Below, piece by piece: positions 1-32,134 of a stretch of 32,401 bases of DNA. A model generated the notes under the pieces. That model was not told the DNA's origin. It searched no databases and saw nothing but the letters and a program-made list of their open reading frames with translations. Source of the stretch: an uncultured Thiodictyon sp. (GTDB lineage: Bacteria; Pseudomonadota; Gammaproteobacteria; Chromatiales; Chromatiaceae); assembly GCF_903946935.1 (NCBI RefSeq), contig NZ_CAJAXH010000019.1, forward strand, positions 1 through 32,401, written 5' to 3'. The position numbers were made by a program, and so were the translations under genes. Each line of letters starts with the position of its first letter. Position 1 is the first letter of the stretch.

Positions 1-3000
1 CACCGGGGACGTCACCCTTGAGTTGCTCGATGCGGCGGGAACGAGGCTGCGTTACGTCTACGGGATTTCAAGCGACGTGACGAAAGAGATCGTCGCGCCG
101 ATCTATGCCGACGGGCTGTATTACCTTCGCGTGTCCGGCTCGGGTAGAGGCGGTTATGCTCTCAATGCCTCTCTACACGAGACGCCCACTCAGACATCTG
201 CTTCTCTAGACCCTTACGACCCCTTGCGGCTCGCCAGCCTGGTTGCCGATCCGGTCGATGTCTCCACCGGCGCTCATGTCCTCACTCGTACCGTCATGCA
301 GATTGACGGTGCCTTATCGCTGGGCGTCAACCTGAACTACAGCTCCCGCGACCCATTGGATAGAGGAGTTGGATTTGGCTGGAGCCACAGCTATCAAATG
401 CAGATGGTTGTCGAGAGCGACGGCTCACTGACCATCTACTGGCCGACAGGGCGTATCACCCGTTACCAAACACCCACCAACGGACTCTATCGAAATATTG
501 ATGGTGACTCGCGTGATGAGATGCGCAGCATCGCTAACGGCTACGAACTGATTGATGAGCGTCATAGTCGCTACACCTTCACCGGCAGCGGAGAGTTGAC
601 GCAGCAGCGCAATAAAACAGGGCTCGCCATTAACTACAGCTACAGCAGTGGTCGGCTCAGTACGGTCACTGAACCCCTGTCGGCTCGATCGATTCACTTC
701 AGCTACAACGGCAGTAACCGACTGTCGACCATCAGCGCTGACGATGCAGGCAGTGTCACCCTAAGCTACGACAGCAATGGGAATCTGGTGACCATTACCG
801 ATGCCATGAACGCCAGCGAACAGTTTAGCTATGATGCAAACCATCGTATCTTGACCGGAACCGACCCGCTCAATGTCATTTTCTTCAGCAACACCTATGA
901 CGTGCAGGGACGGGTGATCGAACAGGAAGATGGCCGCACCGGCAACCTGGCAGGCACCTTCACCTATACCGATAACGGCAACGGCACCACCACTCAGGTC
1001 TACTCTGACCGAACTGGTGCGACCAAAACCTATGTCCACGACAGCCAGTATCGCCTCACCGCACTCACCGACGAACTGGGGTATACCAGCCGATACACTT
1101 ATGATGTTCAGGGCAACCGCATTAGTGAAACGGATGCCAATGGCAACACCACCCATTACTACTACGACATCAATGGCAACCTGATACGCGCTGCCAACCC
1201 CTTTGGCGACAGTACCCATTTCAGCTTTGACGAAAGTGACGATCTGGTCAGCATTACCGGGCCGGATGGGACTAGAACTACATTCAGTTACGACAGCAAT
1301 CACCGATTGACCGCAACGTCTGACCCGTCGGGTGCCGGCACTACCACCGAATACGACAGCGATGGCCTGGTGATCGCCAGCACCAACGAGCGCGGTGGCC
1401 GTACCACCTACACCCTAGTCAACGGGCAGCCGCAAAGCGTTACCGACTCAACCAACCACAGCGTGAGCATGACCTACGACAATGCTGGTCGAGTGCGCAC
1501 CCTGACAGACGGCGATAGCAATGCCACGCAATATCAGTACGACCTGAAAGGCCGAGCGGTTAAAACCATTAACCCGCTCAGCCAGGAAACTGTCAACGTC
1601 TATGACGCCAAAGGACGACTGATCAGCCACACCAATGCGCGTGGATACATCACCACTTATAGCTATGATAATAATGACAAGCTGATCGCAGAAACCAATT
1701 CGCTCAACGGCGTGACGCGCTATACCTACGATGGTGAAGATCGCGTTAAGACCATCACCGATGCGCTCAATCAGGTCACGGCGACCTTTACCTACGACGC
1801 AAAAGGACAAGTAACTTCCATTACTGATGCCCTGAATCGAACAACCCACTTCGGTTACGATAAGGTCGGAAATCAAATCAGTGCAACTGACCCAGCCAAT
1901 CAGACCAGTCAATCGCGTTATGATGCACTGAACCGGGTTATCGAAGAGATTGATGCGCTCAATCGTGAGCAGCGTTATAGCTACGACCAACGGGGCAACC
2001 TCAGTAGCCATACGGCGCCGGGCGAACGCCAGTCGCAATACAACTACGACGCAGTGGGTCGCTTGACCAAAACCACCGACCCATTGGGTGGTACGGTAAA
2101 GCAAGAGTTTGATGCAGCCGGCCAACGCATTCGCCTGGTTGACCCCAACAACCAACCACTCCAACTCAGCTACGATAGCGAAGGAAGGTTGCTGAAAGTA
2201 ACAACCGCCGACGGCCACTTCTGGCAAGCCAGCTACACCTCGCGCGGAGAGATGGCCCAGTTAATCAATGCCCGGAGCCATGTCAGCCAATACGCCTACG
2301 ACAAAGTGCAGCGGCTTTCAGAAACCAGTGAATCGGGCAGCGTTATCAGCTACAGCTACGATGCCAACGGCAATCGCACTCAGGTCACCACAGAACAGGG
2401 CATCTGGAGCTATAGCTACGATGCACTGGACCGTCTCACCAGCCATACCGACCACAATGGTCAGACCCTGCAATATGGCTACGATGCGATCGGTCAACTC
2501 AAGACCCTCACCTATCCCGATGGAAAAATAGTCAATTACAGCTACGACGCGGCCGGGCAGTTAACCCAGGTTACCGACTGGGCCAATCGCACCACCCGCT
2601 ACAGCTACGTCAGCCTGGGCAGACTGCAAACCACTAACCACAGCAATGGTTTGGCCACCCACTACAGCTACGATAGTGGCAATCAACTCCTAACCAAGCG
2701 TACCGTCGACGCCAGCGGTCAGGAATTGATTCGATACGACTACAGCTATGATTCGCGGGGTCAACTCATCCAGGAGAGTGGCTTTGACAGCCTGCAACCA
2801 ATACACGTCGGCGCCAGCATGAGTTATGGCCATGACAATATTCTGACAACGTTCAACAACCAAAAACTCAGCTACGATGCCGATGGCAACATGACGAATG
2901 GCTGGTTGCAGGGAGCTGTGCAAAGTTTCAGTTACGACAACCGTAACCGCTTGACGCAAGTCGGCACGACCAATTATCACTACAACAGCGATAACCACCG

Positions 3001-4096
3001 TATCGCCAGGATTCAGAATGGCAGCGAAGCCCGTTATGTGATCAACCCACTGCCCTCCCTAGAACAAGTGCTGATGGAGACCAATGGCAGCAACACGCCA
3101 ACCGCCTGGAATGTCTACGGCCTGGGACTGATTGGGCGCCAACACAGCGATGGCAGTTACCACACCTACCACTATGACTATCGGGGTAGCACCATAGCGC
3201 TGACCAACAGTAGTGGAGCCATCAGCGATCGCTACTACTACTCCCCCTTTGGACAACGGGTCGGGCAGCAGGGAACCACAGAGCAACCCTTTGCCTACAA
3301 CGGCCGTGATGGCGTATTGACCGATGGCAATGACCTCTACTACATGCGTGCTCGCTATTACAACCCGGATTTTGGCAGGTTCATCAATCGGGATTTACTC
3401 TTGGGTAACCCGACGCAGAGCCAGTCGATAAACCGCTATGCGTATGTGCAGGGTAATCCTGTGATGGCAATAGATCCGACTGGAGAAACTATTGAAAGTG
3501 TAAATCGAGCATTTTTTGGGGCAATGAAAAGCTCCGCGGAGCCATTGATTAGTGATTTACAATTAATTGGGGGGGTAGGAGAAGGCATTGCTAAGAAGTG
3601 GTATCGTAACTTAGTTGAACCTTCGGCTTATTATATTCAGGATACATCGTTGCCTGAATTCAAAAGGGATATGGATAATCTGATAATGAACATTGGCGGC
3701 TTAGGCTGGGATGGCTTAAGAGCAACAGCATGGGCAAGTCAAAGGGCATGGAAGAATAGAGTCGAAATTGGGGGTGGTATAAAGGATTTTAGCATTAAGC
3801 TAATAACCAATATGGATAAATTCCCTGACGCAATGAAAAAATCACTTAAAGATTTGGTTGATGTCGAAGCGCACAAGGAAAGAGTGTTGGCTTTATATGG
3901 TGGAGCGGAATACTTGGTAAAGGGGTATATGTATATGGTCGATAACAACTTGGAGAGACGTGTTGGTAATGCGGTTGGTAGCTTAGTGTATGGAAAAATT
4001 CCTGTTTTGGGACAGATAAACAAGGGGATGTTTGCGCTTGATGCTATAAATGGATACGGGAAAGCGAGAAGTGCCGTCTATGGTTTTTTGAAGTAG
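1..4096 (+). CDS. RHS/YD-repeat protein with variable C-terminus, 5'-partial
   Basis: The reading frame is open from base 2, so the gene starts upstream; the first in-window start-like codon (TTG at 23) is not trusted. The visible N-terminus resembles a pre-peptidase C-terminal (PPC) beta-sandwich (YYLRVSG, YALNASL). A DUF6531-like segment follows (DPVDVSTGAHVL, GFGWSHSY), then roughly 1000 residues of tandem YD repeats of the YDxxGN/YDxxNR type. The RHS core signature YYNPDFGRFINRD lies near residue 1110 (counted from base 23) and NRYAYVQGNPVMAIDPTG ends near 1155. In the family, such proteins form a shell around a C-terminal toxin or effector, exported or surface-displayed. The last ~200 residues (from about base 3487) are AT-richer and unrelated to the repeats, as expected of a swapped tip. 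I see no recognisable nuclease or other catalytic motif there. No immunity-like gene follows directly. Confidence 0.9.
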   Translation, partial: TGDVTLELLDAAGTRLRYVYGISSDVTKEIVAPIYADGLYYLRVSGSGRGGYALNASLHETPTQTSASLDPYDPLRLASLVADPVDVSTGAHVLTRTVMQIDGALSLGVNLNYSSRDPLDRGVGFGWSHSYQMQMVVESDGSLTIYWPTGRITRYQTPTNGLYRNIDGDSRDEMRSIANGYELIDERHSRYTFTGSGELTQQRNKTGLAINYSYSSGRLSTVTEPLSARSIHFSYNGSNRLSTISADDAGSVTLSYDSNGNLVTITDAMNASEQFSYDANHRILTGTDPLNVIFFSNTYDVQGRVIEQEDGRTGNLAGTFTYTDNGNGTTTQVYSDRTGATKTYVHDSQYRLTALTDELGYTSRYTYDVQGNRISETDANGNTTHYYYDINGNLIRAANPFGDSTHFSFDESDDLVSITGPDGTRTTFSYDSNHRLTATSDPSGAGTTTEYDSDGLVIASTNERGGRTTYTLVNGQPQSVTDSTNHSVSMTYDNAGRVRTLTDGDSNATQYQYDLKGRAVKTINPLSQETVNVYDAKGRLISHTNARGYITTYSYDNNDKLIAETNSLNGVTRYTYDGEDRVKTITDALNQVTATFTYDAKGQVTSITDALNRTTHFGYDKVGNQISATDPANQTSQSRYDALNRVIEEIDALNREQRYSYDQRGNLSSHTAPGERQSQYNYDAVGRLTKTTDPLGGTVKQEFDAAGQRIRLVDPNNQPLQLSYDSEGRLLKVTTADGHFWQASYTSRGEMAQLINARSHVSQYAYDKVQRLSETSESGSVISYSYDANGNRTQVTTEQGIWSYSYDALDRLTSHTDHNGQTLQYGYDAIGQLKTLTYPDGKIVNYSYDAAGQLTQVTDWANRTTRYSYVSLGRLQTTNHSNGLATHYSYDSGNQLLTKRTVDASGQELIRYDYSYDSRGQLIQESGFDSLQPIHVGASMSYGHDNILTTFNNQKLSYDADGNMTNGWLQGAVQSFSYDNRNRLTQVGTTNYHYNSDNHRIARIQNGSEARYVINPLPSLEQVLMETNGSNTPTAWNVYGLGLIGRQHSDGSYHTYHYDYRGSTIALTNSSGAISDRYYYSPFGQRVGQQGTTEQPFAYNGRDGVLTDGNDLYYMRARYYNPDFGRFINRDLLLGNPTQSQSINRYAYVQGNPVMAIDPTGETIESVNRAFFGAMKSSAEPLISDLQLIGGVGEGIAKKWYRNLVEPSAYYIQDTSLPEFKRDMDNLIMNIGGLGWDGLRATAWASQRAWKNRVEIGGGIKDFSIKLITNMDKFPDAMKKSLKDLVDVEAHKERVLALYGGAEYLVKGYMYMVDNNLERRVGNAVGSLVYGKIPVLGQINKGMFALDAINGYGKARSAVYGFLK

Positions 4097-4303: not shown

Positions 4304-4888
4304 ATGAACGTGAACAAGATTGTGGCGATGGCGATTGCCGGGCTGTTGGCGCTGCTGCTTCCCCAAGTGATTTGCGCCGGAACGGTCAGCTATGAATACG
4401 ATGCGCTGTATCGCCTGCTCCGGGTGGCCTATTCGGACGGCCGAAGTATCGATTATAGCTACGACTCCGCTGGCAACCTCACCGGAACGGTCGTGACCGG
4501 CGAGCCCGATCAGGACGGCGACGGTGTGCCGGATGTCAGCGACAACTGCCCGAACGTGCCCAATGCGGACCAGGCCAACCACGACACGGATGCCAACGGC
4601 GATGCCTGCGACACGGACGACGACAATGACGGTGTCCCGGATACGCAGGATGCCTTTCCGTTTGACCCCACCGAGCAGGTCGACACGGATGGTGATGGGA
4701 TCGGTGACCGGGCGGATCTCGACGACGACCAGGACGGCGTGGCGGATGCCAGCGATAATTGCCCTTTGGTCAGCAATCCTAATCAGGCCGATGACGATCA
4801 TGACGGCATCGGAGATGTCTGCGATTCCTCGCGGTTCTGCTGGAAATGTCTGCCAAACCGCGGTGGATGGCGGGCGATCCTGCACTGA
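4304..4888 (+). CDS. Exported YD-repeat/thrombospondin type 3 repeat protein with Cys-Trp-Arg C-terminal tail
   Basis: 194 residues. Residues 1-25 are a signal peptide (basic start, long Leu/Ala core, cleavage probably after VICA). Residues 29-64 are two YD motifs (YEYDALYRL, YSYDSAGNL), like one unit of the RHS protein just upstream. Residues 69-175 are acidic thrombospondin type 3 repeats (DGDGVPDVSDNCP, DNDGVPDTQD, DGDGIGDRAD, DQDGVADASDNCP, DHDGIGDVCD), which bind calcium in this family. The final residues 178-193 read F-C-W-K-C-L-P-N-R-G-G-W-R-A-I-L, nearly the same as the end of the GH44 protein at 29056-31233. No enzymatic domain is visible, so a structural or adhesive surface role is inferred. 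The ATG at 4304 is chosen because it gives a complete signal peptide. Confidence 0.85.
   Translation: MNVNKIVAMAIAGLLALLLPQVICAGTVSYEYDALYRLLRVAYSDGRSIDYSYDSAGNLTGTVVTGEPDQDGDGVPDVSDNCPNVPNADQANHDTDANGDACDTDDDNDGVPDTQDAFPFDPTEQVDTDGDGIGDRADLDDDQDGVADASDNCPLVSNPNQADDDHDGIGDVCDSSRFCWKCLPNRGGWRAILH
4835..4885 (+). other. C-terminal tail motif, copy 1 (FCWxCLPxRGGWRAI)
   Basis: Encodes the last 17 residues of the thrombospondin-repeat protein. It matches the end of the GH44 protein (29059-29106) at F, C, W, C, L, P, R, G, G, W, R, A and I. The two copies use different codons for C, L, P, both G and R, so the match is held at protein level. DNA similarity ends at the stop codons. It lacks the transmembrane helix and basic cluster of PEP-CTERM, GlyGly-CTERM or LPXTG signals. 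Function unknown; a sorting, anchoring or crosslinking signal is inferred. Confidence 0.6.
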
Positions 4889-4902
4889 CAGCAGCCCTGA
4901 AG

Positions 4903-5300
4903 CATGGGGACATCGGCGTGTTCGTAGCCAGCGAACGGGCCGCCGAGCGGGTGCTGGGACGCCTGACGCGGCGGCTGCACCAGCCCTTGACCTGGAAGTC
5001 AACGCCGCCAAGAGCGGCGTACACCGCACCGAGGAGACGGCGTTGCTGGGCTTTCGTATCCACCCGGGTGGACACGTGAGCCCCGCGCCGAAGGCCATCG
5101 AGCGGTTAAAGGACAGGGTGTGCGCGCTGTGGGATGCCCGGCAAAGCGTGACCACCAAGCAACTGCGCGATCAGTGGCAACGCTACATCACCGGATGGTG
5201 GAACTACTACGGCTATGCCAACTGACGCCGCGAGGTGGATGCGCTCTCCGGCTGGATCAGACGGCACATGCGAAAATGCTTCCCCGATCAGGCCGTCGCC
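4903..5300 (+). pseudogene. Decayed group II intron reverse transcriptase/maturase, C-terminal fragment
   Basis: Conserved pieces of a group II intron-encoded protein are spread over two frames. Frame 1 carries DIGVFVASERAAERVLGRL, the strand and helix that normally follow the catalytic YADD, which is degraded to HGD here. After a frameshift near 4990, frame 3 carries LDLEVNAAKSGVHR, LLGFRI and the maturase/X region ending WWNYYGYAN. An in-frame TGA (5223-5225) then interrupts the sequence, which continues as RREVDALSGWIRRHMRKCF, the usual family C-terminus. The N-terminal fingers and palm are missing, and I could not recognise intron RNA domains around it. It is dead and begins 15 bases after the stop of the thrombospondin-repeat gene. 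Confidence 0.75.
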
Positions 5301-27950: not shown

Positions 27951-28352
27951 CCTGCGCATCACCGACACCGAACGTAGCGTTCGCCCTTTTCTTTGCCCTT
28001 AGAAAAAACCAAAGTATTGCCGGAAACAGTCATGCGAATTCGCTCCGTCCACGTCTCGCCTTCGCCGGAGCATTCCGCTTTGGCGGTCCAGGTGCTCGCA
28101 TTCTGCACGATGGACTTGAGATCACACCCACTCTCATAGAACCAGATCTTCCGCTCTTGGATCTTCATCGGCACTCTGTCACCCCCCGCTCGGCAGAGTT
28201 CTTGACTTGGCGCCCACTGACCCACATAAGGAGGCGCACCGAACGCCGGGAGCGTGAACACCGTCGCAGTGACCGCAAGCAACCATCTGTTCATAAATCA
28301 CCTCGGTTTCGAGCATACTTCGGAAAAGCAGTGGACAAGGGATAGATCAGCA
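27951..28352 (-). repeat. 400-bp segmental duplication, copy A
   Basis: Closely matches 31736-32134 in the same orientation. It covers a whole small gene with its ribosome binding site and about 60 bases of leader. The edges are abrupt. The two copies bracket the GH44 region. Confidence 0.8.
27959..28294 (-). CDS. Small secreted four-cysteine protein, paralogue A
   Basis: 111 residues. The signal peptide is MNRWLLAVTATVFTLPAFGA, giving a mature protein of about 91 residues with four cysteines (34, 57, 75, 110) that could form two disulfides in the periplasm. The mature start YVGQWAPSQELC and the pattern C-AGGDRVPMKIQERKIWFYESGC look like a small beta-barrel of the G-x-W type found in uncharacterised proteobacterial secreted proteins; the function is unknown. 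It differs from paralogue B (31744-32076) by nine substitutions and one residue insertion. AGGTGA lies just before the ATG. Confidence 0.75.
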   Translation of the reverse strand: MNRWLLAVTATVFTLPAFGAPPYVGQWAPSQELCRAGGDRVPMKIQERKIWFYESGCDLKSIVQNASTWTAKAECSGEGETWTERIRMTVSGNTLVFSKGKEKGERYVRCR

Positions 28353-29055: not shown

Positions 29056-31233
29056 TCAGAAGATCGCACGCCAGCCGCCGCGGCCGGGCAAACAATCCCA
29101 ACAGAACTGCGGCACGCGGTAGAGGGTGATGGAGTTGCCCGGATAGCTATCCGTGAATGTAGCACCGCTGAAGGTTCGGTCAGCCAGGCGCACGATCGCA
29201 GTCAACTGCGCAGAACTGTAGCGCCAGCCCTGCAGGGTACCGGCGGGCGCGAAGTGGCTCAGGGTCAGTGGCGCCGACAGCGCGTCCGCGGTCTTGTTGA
29301 TGACGATCAAGGTCAAGGCGCCCGTGGCGGTCTCTTCGGCGGCATAGCAAGCAAGCCGGTCCTGGGCGTTGCTGCTGGCACTCACACTGGTCTCACCAAA
29401 GCGGCCTCCAGCCCCATCATAGTTTCGGTATATGCGAAATGCAAAGGCGGCCGGCTCGGTGCTCGCCGGGGGAGACCATAGGGTTGCAAAATCCAACCCT
29501 TCACGACCGAAAATACCCAATACGTCCGCTTGCGCCAGGGCACCATTGATGTGCTCGGGCGCTCCCCAATTGTACTCGGTGATCGCAAGCTTAGTTCCCG
29601 GGTAATTGCTGCGCACCCACTCGCGCATACGCGGGATCAGCCGCACGATGCCACCGTCGGGACCGGCGGCGGCGATCCAACTCTCATCAACATAGGTCGG
29701 GTCCCACAGGGAACGGGTACTGTTGAGACGCAGCGCCTGGGTGGTGGCGTCACCGGCCACGCTCAAAGCGACGCCGGGCGCGGCAGTATAATAGTGCAGA
29801 TCGAGGAAATCCAGAATACGCGTACCGTGCGCCTGCTCATATGCCTGCATCTGCTGGAGGTACCAGGGTACCAAGGGCGTGCCGCCATGGGCATTGCGAT
29901 CATCCGGGGTACTCCAGTCCCCCCGCTGTCCGTCCCACGGGGAATTCCAGTAATAGGTCCAGCCCATGACAACCGGACCCAGGGTTTGGGCCGTCGGATC
30001 AGCGGTCTTGATAGCCGCAGCGTATTGATAGGTGCGGTCGCGCAATTGGTCATAGTTAAGGGCGACCGGCGCCACATCGGCGTGGGTACTCCACCAGATA
30101 TCCGGCTCATTATCCAGGTTGTAATAGCGCACGCCGCCATTGCTCGCCGAGCCGTAGCGGTTGACCAGATAGGTCACCCAGGTTTGGACGAATCCGGGGT
30201 CGATCACAAGACTGGTGTCCGCGGGGTCATTGCCCGCTACCAAGCTGCCATCGGTCTTGACACCATTGCCGCAGTCGGGACGCCAGGCATCGACTTGCTG
30301 TTGCGGACCGTATTTCGCAACGCTGAATCCGCAAGTCGACAAGTCGCCGTTCTTTGCGACATAACCAATCATGGGTAGGGTCAGCGCCGTCTCTACGCCT
30401 AAGGGACGTCCCTGAGCGATCAGGCGATTGGTAGCGGAATCGTCCGGCGGGCCGGCCGCATCACTCAATCTGACGTTCTCGTAGTACCAGTCGTTGGCCG
30501 TGTTGCCGGCGTCGAGCATCCAATTGTAGCGCGTCGTATTGTTGCCTCCCCAGCGACGTACCGACACCCCGAGGCTAGTCAGGAAGGCCGCGTCGGCAGA
30601 CGTTGCACTTTGGCCGTTGACGCCGTAGATCAGTGGGCTGATGGGCTTGCGCTGCGCCGCCGCATCGACCGTCAGTGCCAGTGGCGGCAGGTCAATTCCG
30701 ATCAGGCGCAGGGTGTCGAGGTTATAGGTCGGCGGAACGGCGCCGGTTCGGTCCTGGATATTGATCCGGGCGATCTCGGTGGGGTTACCCAAGGCGCTAA
30801 GAGGCACGTCGACGACACTCCACACGTCCGGGGTGGGGGTAAACTGGAAACTGGCGCTGTTGGCGCCGTTATCGGTCGGCTGTGTGAAGAGCGAGAGTGC
30901 CCCGCTCCCCGGTCGCCCGTAAACGGAAAAACGCAGCCCAGAATAACCGGCGGTGGCGATCGCAGGGCTGGTCCGCAGCGACAGCCCGCCCCAGCCGGCG
31001 CTATAGGTCACGGCCAGCGACGAGGCGCCAGTGACCTTGATGTCCGTGGCGACCGCCGCTGTCGTACTCCAGGACCAGTCCTCCCAGCCGCTCGCCAGGC
31101 CGTCCTCGTAGATCATCAGATCGGCAGCCCGGGCCGGCAAGGCGGTCACCGCACTCAGGATCAACCAGACGATGAGACTGCCCCTGAGGACAGGGGGGCC
31201 GCGACGAGACCGCTCGAAAAGGAATGCAACCAT
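29056..31233 (-). CDS. Secreted GH44-family glycoside hydrolase with C-terminal tail motif
   Basis: 725 residues. A signal peptide ends near residue 36 (TALPARA). Residues ~38-180 form a carbohydrate-binding-like jelly roll (YEDGLASGWEDWSW ... YNLDTLRLIG). Residues ~185-620 are a GH44 catalytic domain: ISPLIYGVNGQ, RRWGGNNTTRYNW, the acid/base Glu376 in LDNEPDIW, DFLDLHYY and the nucleophile Glu553 in ITEYNWGA. A C-terminal beta domain runs ~620-706. GH44 enzymes are endo-acting on beta-1,4-glucans such as cellulose and xyloglucan. The last 16 residues read F-C-W-D-C-L-P-G-R-G-G-W-R-A-I-F, the tail also found on the thrombospondin-repeat protein at 4304. The ATG at 31233 has GGAGAGA upstream. 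Dockerin and PEP-CTERM features are absent. Confidence 0.88.
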   Translation of the reverse strand: MVAFLFERSRRGPPVLRGSLIVWLILSAVTALPARAADLMIYEDGLASGWEDWSWSTTAAVATDIKVTGASSLAVTYSAGWGGLSLRTSPAIATAGYSGLRFSVYGRPGSGALSLFTQPTDNGANSASFQFTPTPDVWSVVDVPLSALGNPTEIARINIQDRTGAVPPTYNLDTLRLIGIDLPPLALTVDAAAQRKPISPLIYGVNGQSATSADAAFLTSLGVSVRRWGGNNTTRYNWMLDAGNTANDWYYENVRLSDAAGPPDDSATNRLIAQGRPLGVETALTLPMIGYVAKNGDLSTCGFSVAKYGPQQQVDAWRPDCGNGVKTDGSLVAGNDPADTSLVIDPGFVQTWVTYLVNRYGSASNGGVRYYNLDNEPDIWWSTHADVAPVALNYDQLRDRTYQYAAAIKTADPTAQTLGPVVMGWTYYWNSPWDGQRGDWSTPDDRNAHGGTPLVPWYLQQMQAYEQAHGTRILDFLDLHYYTAAPGVALSVAGDATTQALRLNSTRSLWDPTYVDESWIAAAGPDGGIVRLIPRMREWVRSNYPGTKLAITEYNWGAPEHINGALAQADVLGIFGREGLDFATLWSPPASTEPAAFAFRIYRNYDGAGGRFGETSVSASSNAQDRLACYAAEETATGALTLIVINKTADALSAPLTLSHFAPAGTLQGWRYSSAQLTAIVRLADRTFSGATFTDSYPGNSITLYRVPQFCWDCLPGRGGWRAIF
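29059..29106 (-). other. C-terminal tail motif, copy 2 (FCWxCLPxRGGWRAI)
   Basis: Encodes residues 710-725 of the GH44 protein. Thirteen residues are identical to the thrombospondin-repeat protein tail (4835-4885), with silent differences at Cys, Leu, Pro, both Gly and Arg codons. Sequence after the stop codon is unrelated between the copies. Confidence 0.6.
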
Positions 31234-31735: not shown

Positions 31736-32134
31736 CCTGCGCATCACCGACACCGAACGTAGCGTTCGCCCTTTCCTTTGTCCTTAGAGAAAACCAACGT
31801 ATTGCCGGAAACGGTCATGCGAATGCGCTCGGTCCAGGTTTCTCCTTCACCAGCGCATTCCGCTTTGGCGGTCCAGGTGCTCGCATTCTGCACGATGGAC
31901 TTGAGATCACACCCACTCTCATAGAACCAGATCTTCCGCTCTTGGATCTTCATCGGCACTCTGTCACCGCCCGCCCGGCAGAGTTGTTGACTCTGTGCCC
32001 ACTGACCGACATAGGGCGCACCGAACGCCGGGAGCGTGAACACCGCCGCAATGACCGCCGGCAACCATCTTTTCATGACTCACCTCGGTTTCGAGTACAC
32101 TTCGGAAGCGATGTGGACCAGGGATATATCAGCA
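31736..32134 (-). repeat. 400-bp segmental duplication, copy B
   Basis: Direct-orientation copy of 27951-28352, including coding region, ribosome binding site and leader. The central coding part is almost identical in DNA, so the duplication is recent or kept alike by conversion. Recombination between copies would delete the GH44 gene. The preceding gap 31509-31743 holds no gene. Confidence 0.8.
31744..32076 (-). CDS. Small secreted four-cysteine protein, paralogue B
   Basis: 110 residues, 101 of 110 aligned positions identical to paralogue A (27959-28294). The signal peptide is MKRWLPAVIAAVFTLPAFGA. All four mature cysteines are kept, and the block from CRAGGDRVPMKIQ to TWTAKAEC is unchanged. 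Most differences fall in the signal peptide and the C-terminal Lys/Glu-rich stretch. An AGGTGA ribosome binding site precedes the ATG. Function unknown. Confidence 0.75.
   Translation of the reverse strand: MKRWLPAVIAAVFTLPAFGAPYVGQWAQSQQLCRAGGDRVPMKIQERKIWFYESGCDLKSIVQNASTWTAKAECAGEGETWTERIRMTVSGNTLVFSKDKGKGERYVRCR

Follow-up and report, generated by a model that had tools for sequence, protein, structure and literature searches.

Two otherwise unrelated proteins encoded in a 32,401-nucleotide stretch of DNA from an uncultured Thiodictyon sp. (contig NZ_CAJAXH010000019.1; "the window" below means this whole stretch) end in nearly the same peptide. What does a tail shared by a small repeat protein and a GH44-type glycoside hydrolase do, and with which partner? 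The original prediction, that both proteins end in FCWxCLPxRGGWRAI, was correct: their tails, FCWKCLPNRGGWRAILH and FCWDCLPGRGGWRAIF, are identical at 13 of 15 positions, six of the codon differences being silent and two residue-changing. The tail is almost certainly a real, uncatalogued C-terminal signal, and it is linked at the gene level to two uncatalogued protein families, here called CysP and EIG. We favor, with a probability of about 0.5, the reading that the tail serves for docking at the C-terminus, so that unrelated exported cargoes would share one small carrier, CysP, predicted to resemble the B subunits of AB5 toxins.

The genomic distribution of the tail was determined using a DNA pattern of C-W-x-C-L-P-x-R-G-G-W-R in which at most two mismatches were allowed, the same pattern reversed serving as control. 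The window's genome (G000; 5,995,245 bases in 321 contigs) contained eight matches to the pattern and none to its reverse. Position was not filtered, and all eight lie in frame, 15-17 residues before a stop codon; two are in short frames, one of 44 codons (L047) and one encoding 63 residues, hardly more than a signal peptide plus the tail (L044). Among 194 genomes of the family, the pattern occurred in 21 and true tails in 13 (G000, G023, G079, G102, G119, G127, G139, G142, G153, G156, G188, G190 and G192), with a single match to the reversed pattern; in-frame translation gave no tail for the remaining eight pattern-positive genomes or for one surplus match in G139. All ten matches in G156 are tails, as are 14 of the 15 in G142; the fifteenth, on contig C343 (L118), is interrupted within the motif by an in-frame stop codon and is apparently a decayed copy. 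Two further G142 tails, L111 and that of the GH44 orthologue in L164, were obtained outside the pattern scan, bringing this genome to at least 16. Three members of the window's genus rated 100% complete (G035, G107 and G168) had no pattern match. A scan of named genomes returned 22 stretches, of which 15 belong to Thiodictyon, Lamprocystis, Thiocapsa, Halochromatium and a Competibacteraceae bacterium: 14 are tails 16-18 residues before a stop, and the last (L073) reaches a contig end, the same tail being complete in L120. The other seven, in unrelated bacteria, yielded no tail. Nor did any of the ten matches in a further 330 genomes of the class sample, all with one or two mismatches and all either internal or in frames of 15-27 codons, one containing a stop. 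When 54 neighborhoods plus the window (908,776 bases) were scanned for the core peptide, again without a position filter, all 44 copies encountered lay at most 25 residues from a stop; these loci were mostly chosen for holding tails, so that the count shows the lack of internal copies and is not a genome-wide rate. Five of the 44 are in frames of fewer than 80 codons, which may in some cases stem from broken genes or fragmentary assembly. The signal was thus found again, at protein ends, in the same genome and in related Chromatiaceae, and none of the outcomes named in advance as contradicting it (mostly internal hits, hits in cytoplasmic proteins, none in relatives, DNA similarity past the stop codons) was observed. 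A literature search by motif letter strings found no paper on the motif within the literature covered.

For the anatomy of the tail we assembled 51 sequences, from 13 Chromatiaceae genomes by pattern, two more by neighborhood and one Competibacteraceae contig: eight from G000, 15 from G142, ten from G156, eight from Thiocapsa-like genomes, three from G119, two from G079, and one each from G127, G190, G112, G157 and L071. In this set, which was selected by motif and closeness to a stop and with expressions that mostly demanded Trp-Arg, the best conserved columns, numbered relative to the Trp, are Pro -5 (50 tails), Gly -1 (49), Cys -10 (47), Cys -7 (46), Gly -2 (42) and Arg -3 (35). The Trp is six residues from the C-terminus in 35 tails, five in one, seven in nine, eight in four and ten in two, and the last residues are basic. 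Six of the 51 frames have fewer than 80 codons; one is a mini-protein and the other five may be broken genes. It had been suggested that the tail serves for lipid or disulfide anchoring; such an attachment, or one through a metal, would use the CxxC pair, and the element C..C[LM]P is indeed present in 46 of 51 tails. However, it is missing from the L054 mini-protein, L056, L111, L155 and L156, and from the internal tail of a fusion protein in G137 described below, all of which keep GWR; anchoring through the cysteines is consequently very improbable. The constant core of the tail is GWR close to the end. One of these variants, AMLPSIGGWRVILGNP (L056), comes from a Halochromatium-like genome without a detected CysP and is close to two other tails. 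As had been noted from the window alone, the tail lacks the hydrophobic helix of known CTERM tags. Two typed tails had no match in NCBIfam.

A functionless mobile DNA repeat or gene-end cassette would account for dispersed copies, and the window copy on the repeat protein is followed, after its stop, by a group II intron remnant. Yet mean pairwise DNA identity among the eight copies of the window's genome is 0.73 within the tail, 0.33-0.35 upstream and 0.25-0.27, that is background, past the stop. Many different codons encode the Gly and Arg residues that are invariant, and the differing codons comprise 165 silent and 117 residue-changing cases with variable positions counted too. A mobile repeat can hardly be credited in the face of these values, and the earlier claim of selection on the peptide stands. 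The tail is also a modular add-on, because GH44 orthologues in five relatives stop at the same point without it. The tailed GH44 copies, in the window and in G142, are 86% identical to each other, whereas the orthologues of G079, G107, G127, G168 and G033 (74-77%) end in LYRVPGRRL or similar at that point; the DNA past their stops holds no tail remnant in three frames. A more distant homologue in G156 (about 45-49%) has a different C-terminus and lacks the tail, and G035 contains GH44 fragments.

Which gene co-occurs with the tail? Clustering of the genes around tails led to CysP, a small secreted protein with a mature part of about 95 residues and four invariant cysteines, seen in 11 independent tail or EIG neighborhoods. 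A profile search, which scored the best candidates per genome and may miss distant relatives, gave 21 matches in 15 of the 194 family genomes (15 of 210 in the order). A further 368 genomes from the class sample added one match (G257), a further 238 from the phylum sample added none, and plasmids had none. At 17 of the 21 CysP genes, a gene with a GWR-type tail lies just upstream on the same strand or, in one case, is fused, an EIG gene standing between in some. In seven loci, the Competibacteraceae contig L071 included, only 43-75 bases separate the stop of the tailed gene from the CysP profile match. Across the 194 family genomes, 11 had both tag (by pattern) and CysP, two the tag only, four CysP only and 177 neither (Fisher p = 3.7e-13, a figure that overstates the association since the genomes are related). 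Within the window's genus, CysP is present in the tag-rich G000, G142 and G156 and in G079 (two tails), and the profile search found none in G127 (one tail) or in the tag-less G035, G107 and G168. Moreover, in G157 and G112, CysP-only by pattern, the gene preceding CysP has a diverged tail, PAPGGWRAILQ and GSGGWRHAISLQ, respectively. The window's genome has eight tails and a single CysP gene. We conclude that CysP is very probably the functional partner of the tail. In G137, one CysP gene (L159) is adjoined by neither a GWR-tailed gene nor EIG and is perhaps an orphan carrier.

The second family, EIG, has an N-terminal hydrophobic segment followed by EIGxxLDAD repeats (e.g. EIGPPMDAD) and belongs to the tail-CysP cluster at most loci. 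It adjoins the pair in L037-L041, L043, L044, L054, L071, L110, L111, L156 and L160, with diverged forms in L155 and L154. A DNA pattern for the repeat matched 28 of the 194 family genomes, mostly in what proved on translation to be other proteins such as isoleucyl-tRNA synthetase; EIG is genuine in G000, G023, G102, G139, G142, G153 and G188, and in G137 with one exact repeat, and the EIG-like genes of G156, G157 and G112 were overlooked by the pattern. In G137, a third of the four CysP-only genomes, a subtilase, the sequence SLPSRGGWRAAV (tail LPSRGGWRAAV) and EIG repeats form one chain, with CysP adjoining. This fusion, the many loci with EIG beside the pair, and the match of acidic repeats to basic tails could mean that EIG, not CysP, is the receptor that holds cargo at the membrane. 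Nevertheless, no EIG was seen near tail and CysP in L042 (G192), L128 (G190) and L131 (G079), and the fusion could equally mean that tail and EIG bind a third partner. We therefore consider an EIG receptor improbable.

The predicted structure of CysP suggested how it might act. Two AlphaFold models, from CysP rows about 34% identical, had pLDDT values of 86.5 and 87.8, and both have the order strand-strand-strand-helix-strand-strand. In Foldseek searches of the PDB, AB5 B subunits took ranks 1-20 for the first model and 1-13 for the second, and made up 42 and 29 of the best 50 rows, respectively. TM reached 0.69 of the target, and the top matches had a probability of about 1 but weak E-values. 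These models make an AB5-like (OB) fold probable for CysP.

Passages of PMC8749428 place the C-terminal helix of the A subunit of AB5 toxins in the pore of the B pentamer, and passages of PMC6107655 describe a fused A tail as enough by itself to assemble foreign cargo with B. As in these toxins, the gene of a tailed protein is followed closely by that of a small secreted protein whose predicted OB fold is nearest to B subunits, the common element is a C-terminal tail, and subtilases are among the tailed proteins, as in SubAB, a known AB5 toxin that is described as having a subtilase A subunit. We favor the AB5 plan because it accommodates the order of the genes, a tail that is modular and basic, and a small, constant partner with the predicted fold. 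The differences are that here many unrelated cargoes correspond to one carrier, that EIG is an extra partner, that the hosts are purple sulfur bacteria, and that neither sequence homology to the toxins is detectable nor a toxin function indicated. B subunits are known to evolve apart from A: two of them, PltB and PltC, share one A set (passages of PMC8749428), and B stands alone in the orphan cases of PMC9120245, as far as the excerpts used go. In the present case a single B-like protein would be common to many proteins with tails.

We envisage that exported proteins of unrelated kinds would be taken up by CysP through the tail, the CysP gene, present once or a few times per genome, adjoining that of one tagged protein. 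By analogy with the toxins, CysP subunits may assemble into a periplasmic ring, the GWR tail of one cargo would enter or cap it as the A-subunit tail does, and the complex would be exported or kept at the surface, EIG possibly being its anchor or scaffold. Some AB5 toxins are exported by type II secretion; this precedent, and the presence of the type II secretin GspD here, make that system a candidate route. A CysP ring with the tail in its pore is a tentative proposal, which we rate somewhat below even chances. Still more doubtful is a complete non-toxin platform, in which an EIG-tethered B-like ring would carry 8 to 16 different exoproteins with one interchangeable tail in common; this would make the toxin plan a general means of docking secreted or surface proteins. 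Were the docking-tag reading true, the AB5 principle would reach beyond the known toxins, with their one or two dedicated A subunits, to many-to-one display or export by free-living phototrophs, the docking being done by a short natural tail. It would also give a function to two uncatalogued families and to hundreds of unannotated C-terminal residues, and would define a third kind of C-terminal signal besides sortase-type and secretion-domain signals. Should the likeness to AB5 fail, the C-terminal signal would still be uncatalogued and still have a clear partner.

Several observations weigh against the AB5-like docking tag. The tag occurs without CysP in G119 (three tails, 89% complete) and in G127, and four CysP genes have no adjoining GWR tail: G137 C3, G137 C14, a fragment in G165 and G142 C494 at a contig edge. 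In G257, outside the family, a large protein with no GWR at its end lies between CysP and an EIG-like gene (TGEFIDVDDP repeats); this end is either a tail that has diverged or a case against the rule. On the structural side, the rest of the best 50 Foldseek rows are other OB folds (21 of 50 for the second model), the best E-values are 0.013 and 0.0083, none reaching 0.001, and sequence searches gave no match to known B subunits in Pfam (E 1), NCBIfam or the PDB (E 10). The putative pore-lining helix has a mean conservation of 0.81, below that of two strands (0.88 and 0.86). In addition, the tail is shorter than A2 parts, and many cargoes look structural, unlike A subunits.

Pfam domains were determined for 23 tagged proteins. 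Some are enzymes: S8 subtilases (L046, L111), an M23 peptidase (L119), a PF00144 serine hydrolase (L049) and the GH44 hydrolase of the window. Others have no enzyme domain, and the list includes a PhoPQ-related protein (L043) and ice-binding (L110), Lcl_C (L055), SBBP (L123), LVIVD (L126), fn3 (L037) and TSP3 proteins, besides several without a Pfam match. The proposal of a C-terminal signal on unrelated proteins is well borne out by this range of cargoes and by the C-terminal position of all eight matches in the window's genome. A crude, unvalidated signal-peptide heuristic, applied to frames many of which are incomplete at their start, passed 34 of the 51 tagged frames versus 223 of 557 other frames. 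Export is supported in part by these counts: it is likely for the tagged proteins as a set, less firmly so for each protein singly.

The tail could instead be a sorting signal for an export or processing enzyme, with CysP and EIG as accessory factors or privileged neighbors of cargo genes. Like LPXTG, PEP-CTERM, GlyGly-CTERM and MYXO-CTERM signals, it is strictly C-terminal, sporadic, and found on exported proteins with many cargoes per genome, the many-to-one layout recalling GlyGly-CTERM and rhombosortase as outlined in portions of PMC3237569. Its set spacing from the C-terminus (Trp five to seven residues away in 45 of 51 tails) and basic last residues are also in keeping with such a signal. 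In contrast to CTERM signals, the tail has no transmembrane helix or other hydrophobic segment, and its partner is small and secreted rather than a membrane peptidase. Three families of machinery were tested. Exosortase (PF09721) was unmatched in the tagged G119, G139, G188 and G192 and present in the untagged G107 and G168; rhombosortase exceeded its cut-off in four of 21 genomes, including G257, where the pattern found no tail. Since their distribution does not follow the tag, both were ruled out as its machinery. GspD, above its cut-off in 19 of the 21, says little about the tag because it is present in nearly all genomes, tagged or untagged. We regard a sorting signal as unlikely. The expectation of a dedicated machinery encoded elsewhere is supported in part, by CysP and EIG as partner genes, which had not been recognised from the window alone; among the families tested, no protease or sortase was found to follow the tag. 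The Por-type C-terminal domain of type IX secretion is much longer than the tail.

Table 1. Coordinates of tagged proteins, tails and other features in the window and at other loci.
Feature	Position	Strand	Remarks
Tagged protein 1	4304..4888	+	194 aa; hydrophobic signal at the N-terminus, RHS/YD and TSP3 repeats, tail at the C-terminus; Pfam TSP_3 1.1e-25, RHS_repeat 1.2e-6; signal-peptide heuristic score 2.85
Tail of tagged protein 1	4835..4885; stop 4886-4888	+	No-mismatch pattern match; GWR core close to C-terminus
Tagged protein 2	29056..31233	-	GH44-type glycoside hydrolase with C-terminal tail; Pfam PF12891 4.2e-73; NCBIfam EPS_EpsB 411.9 bits, under the 1250 cut-off
Tail of tagged protein 2	29059..29106; stop 29056-29058	-	No-mismatch pattern match
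Large RHS/DUF6531 protein gene	2-4096	+	Upstream of tagged gene 1
Group II intron maturase remnant	4889-5225	+	Adjoins the stop codon of tagged gene 1; Pfam GIIM 22.8 bits, slightly below cut-off
Small secreted-looking protein	27959-28294	-	111 aa
Small secreted-looking protein	31744-32076	-	110 aa
Decayed tail copy (apparent)	L118 (G142:C343:14247-14281)		
CysP gene, perhaps orphan carrier	L159:9906-10397	-	G137
Gene with variant tail	L056:5102-6595	+	
O-antigen-ligase-like gene	L044:14602-15378		No Pfam match
O-antigen-ligase-like gene	L054:9613-10827		Wzy_C 1.2e-15

An O-antigen-ligase-like gene precedes the mini-tag genes of L044 and L054. It was dropped as a candidate for the tag machinery, being found at two loci only and lacking its middle part in the window genome's copy (L044). 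Within the window, the arrangement of a large RHS gene upstream of the small tagged TSP3/YD gene has a counterpart in L051, where a comparable large gene lies upstream of a tagged TSP3 gene, and a gene cluster is common to the window and L048, L051, L112, L114, L118 and L124. Finally, the GH44 gene is flanked by two near-identical genes for small secreted-looking proteins, which suggests a local duplication.
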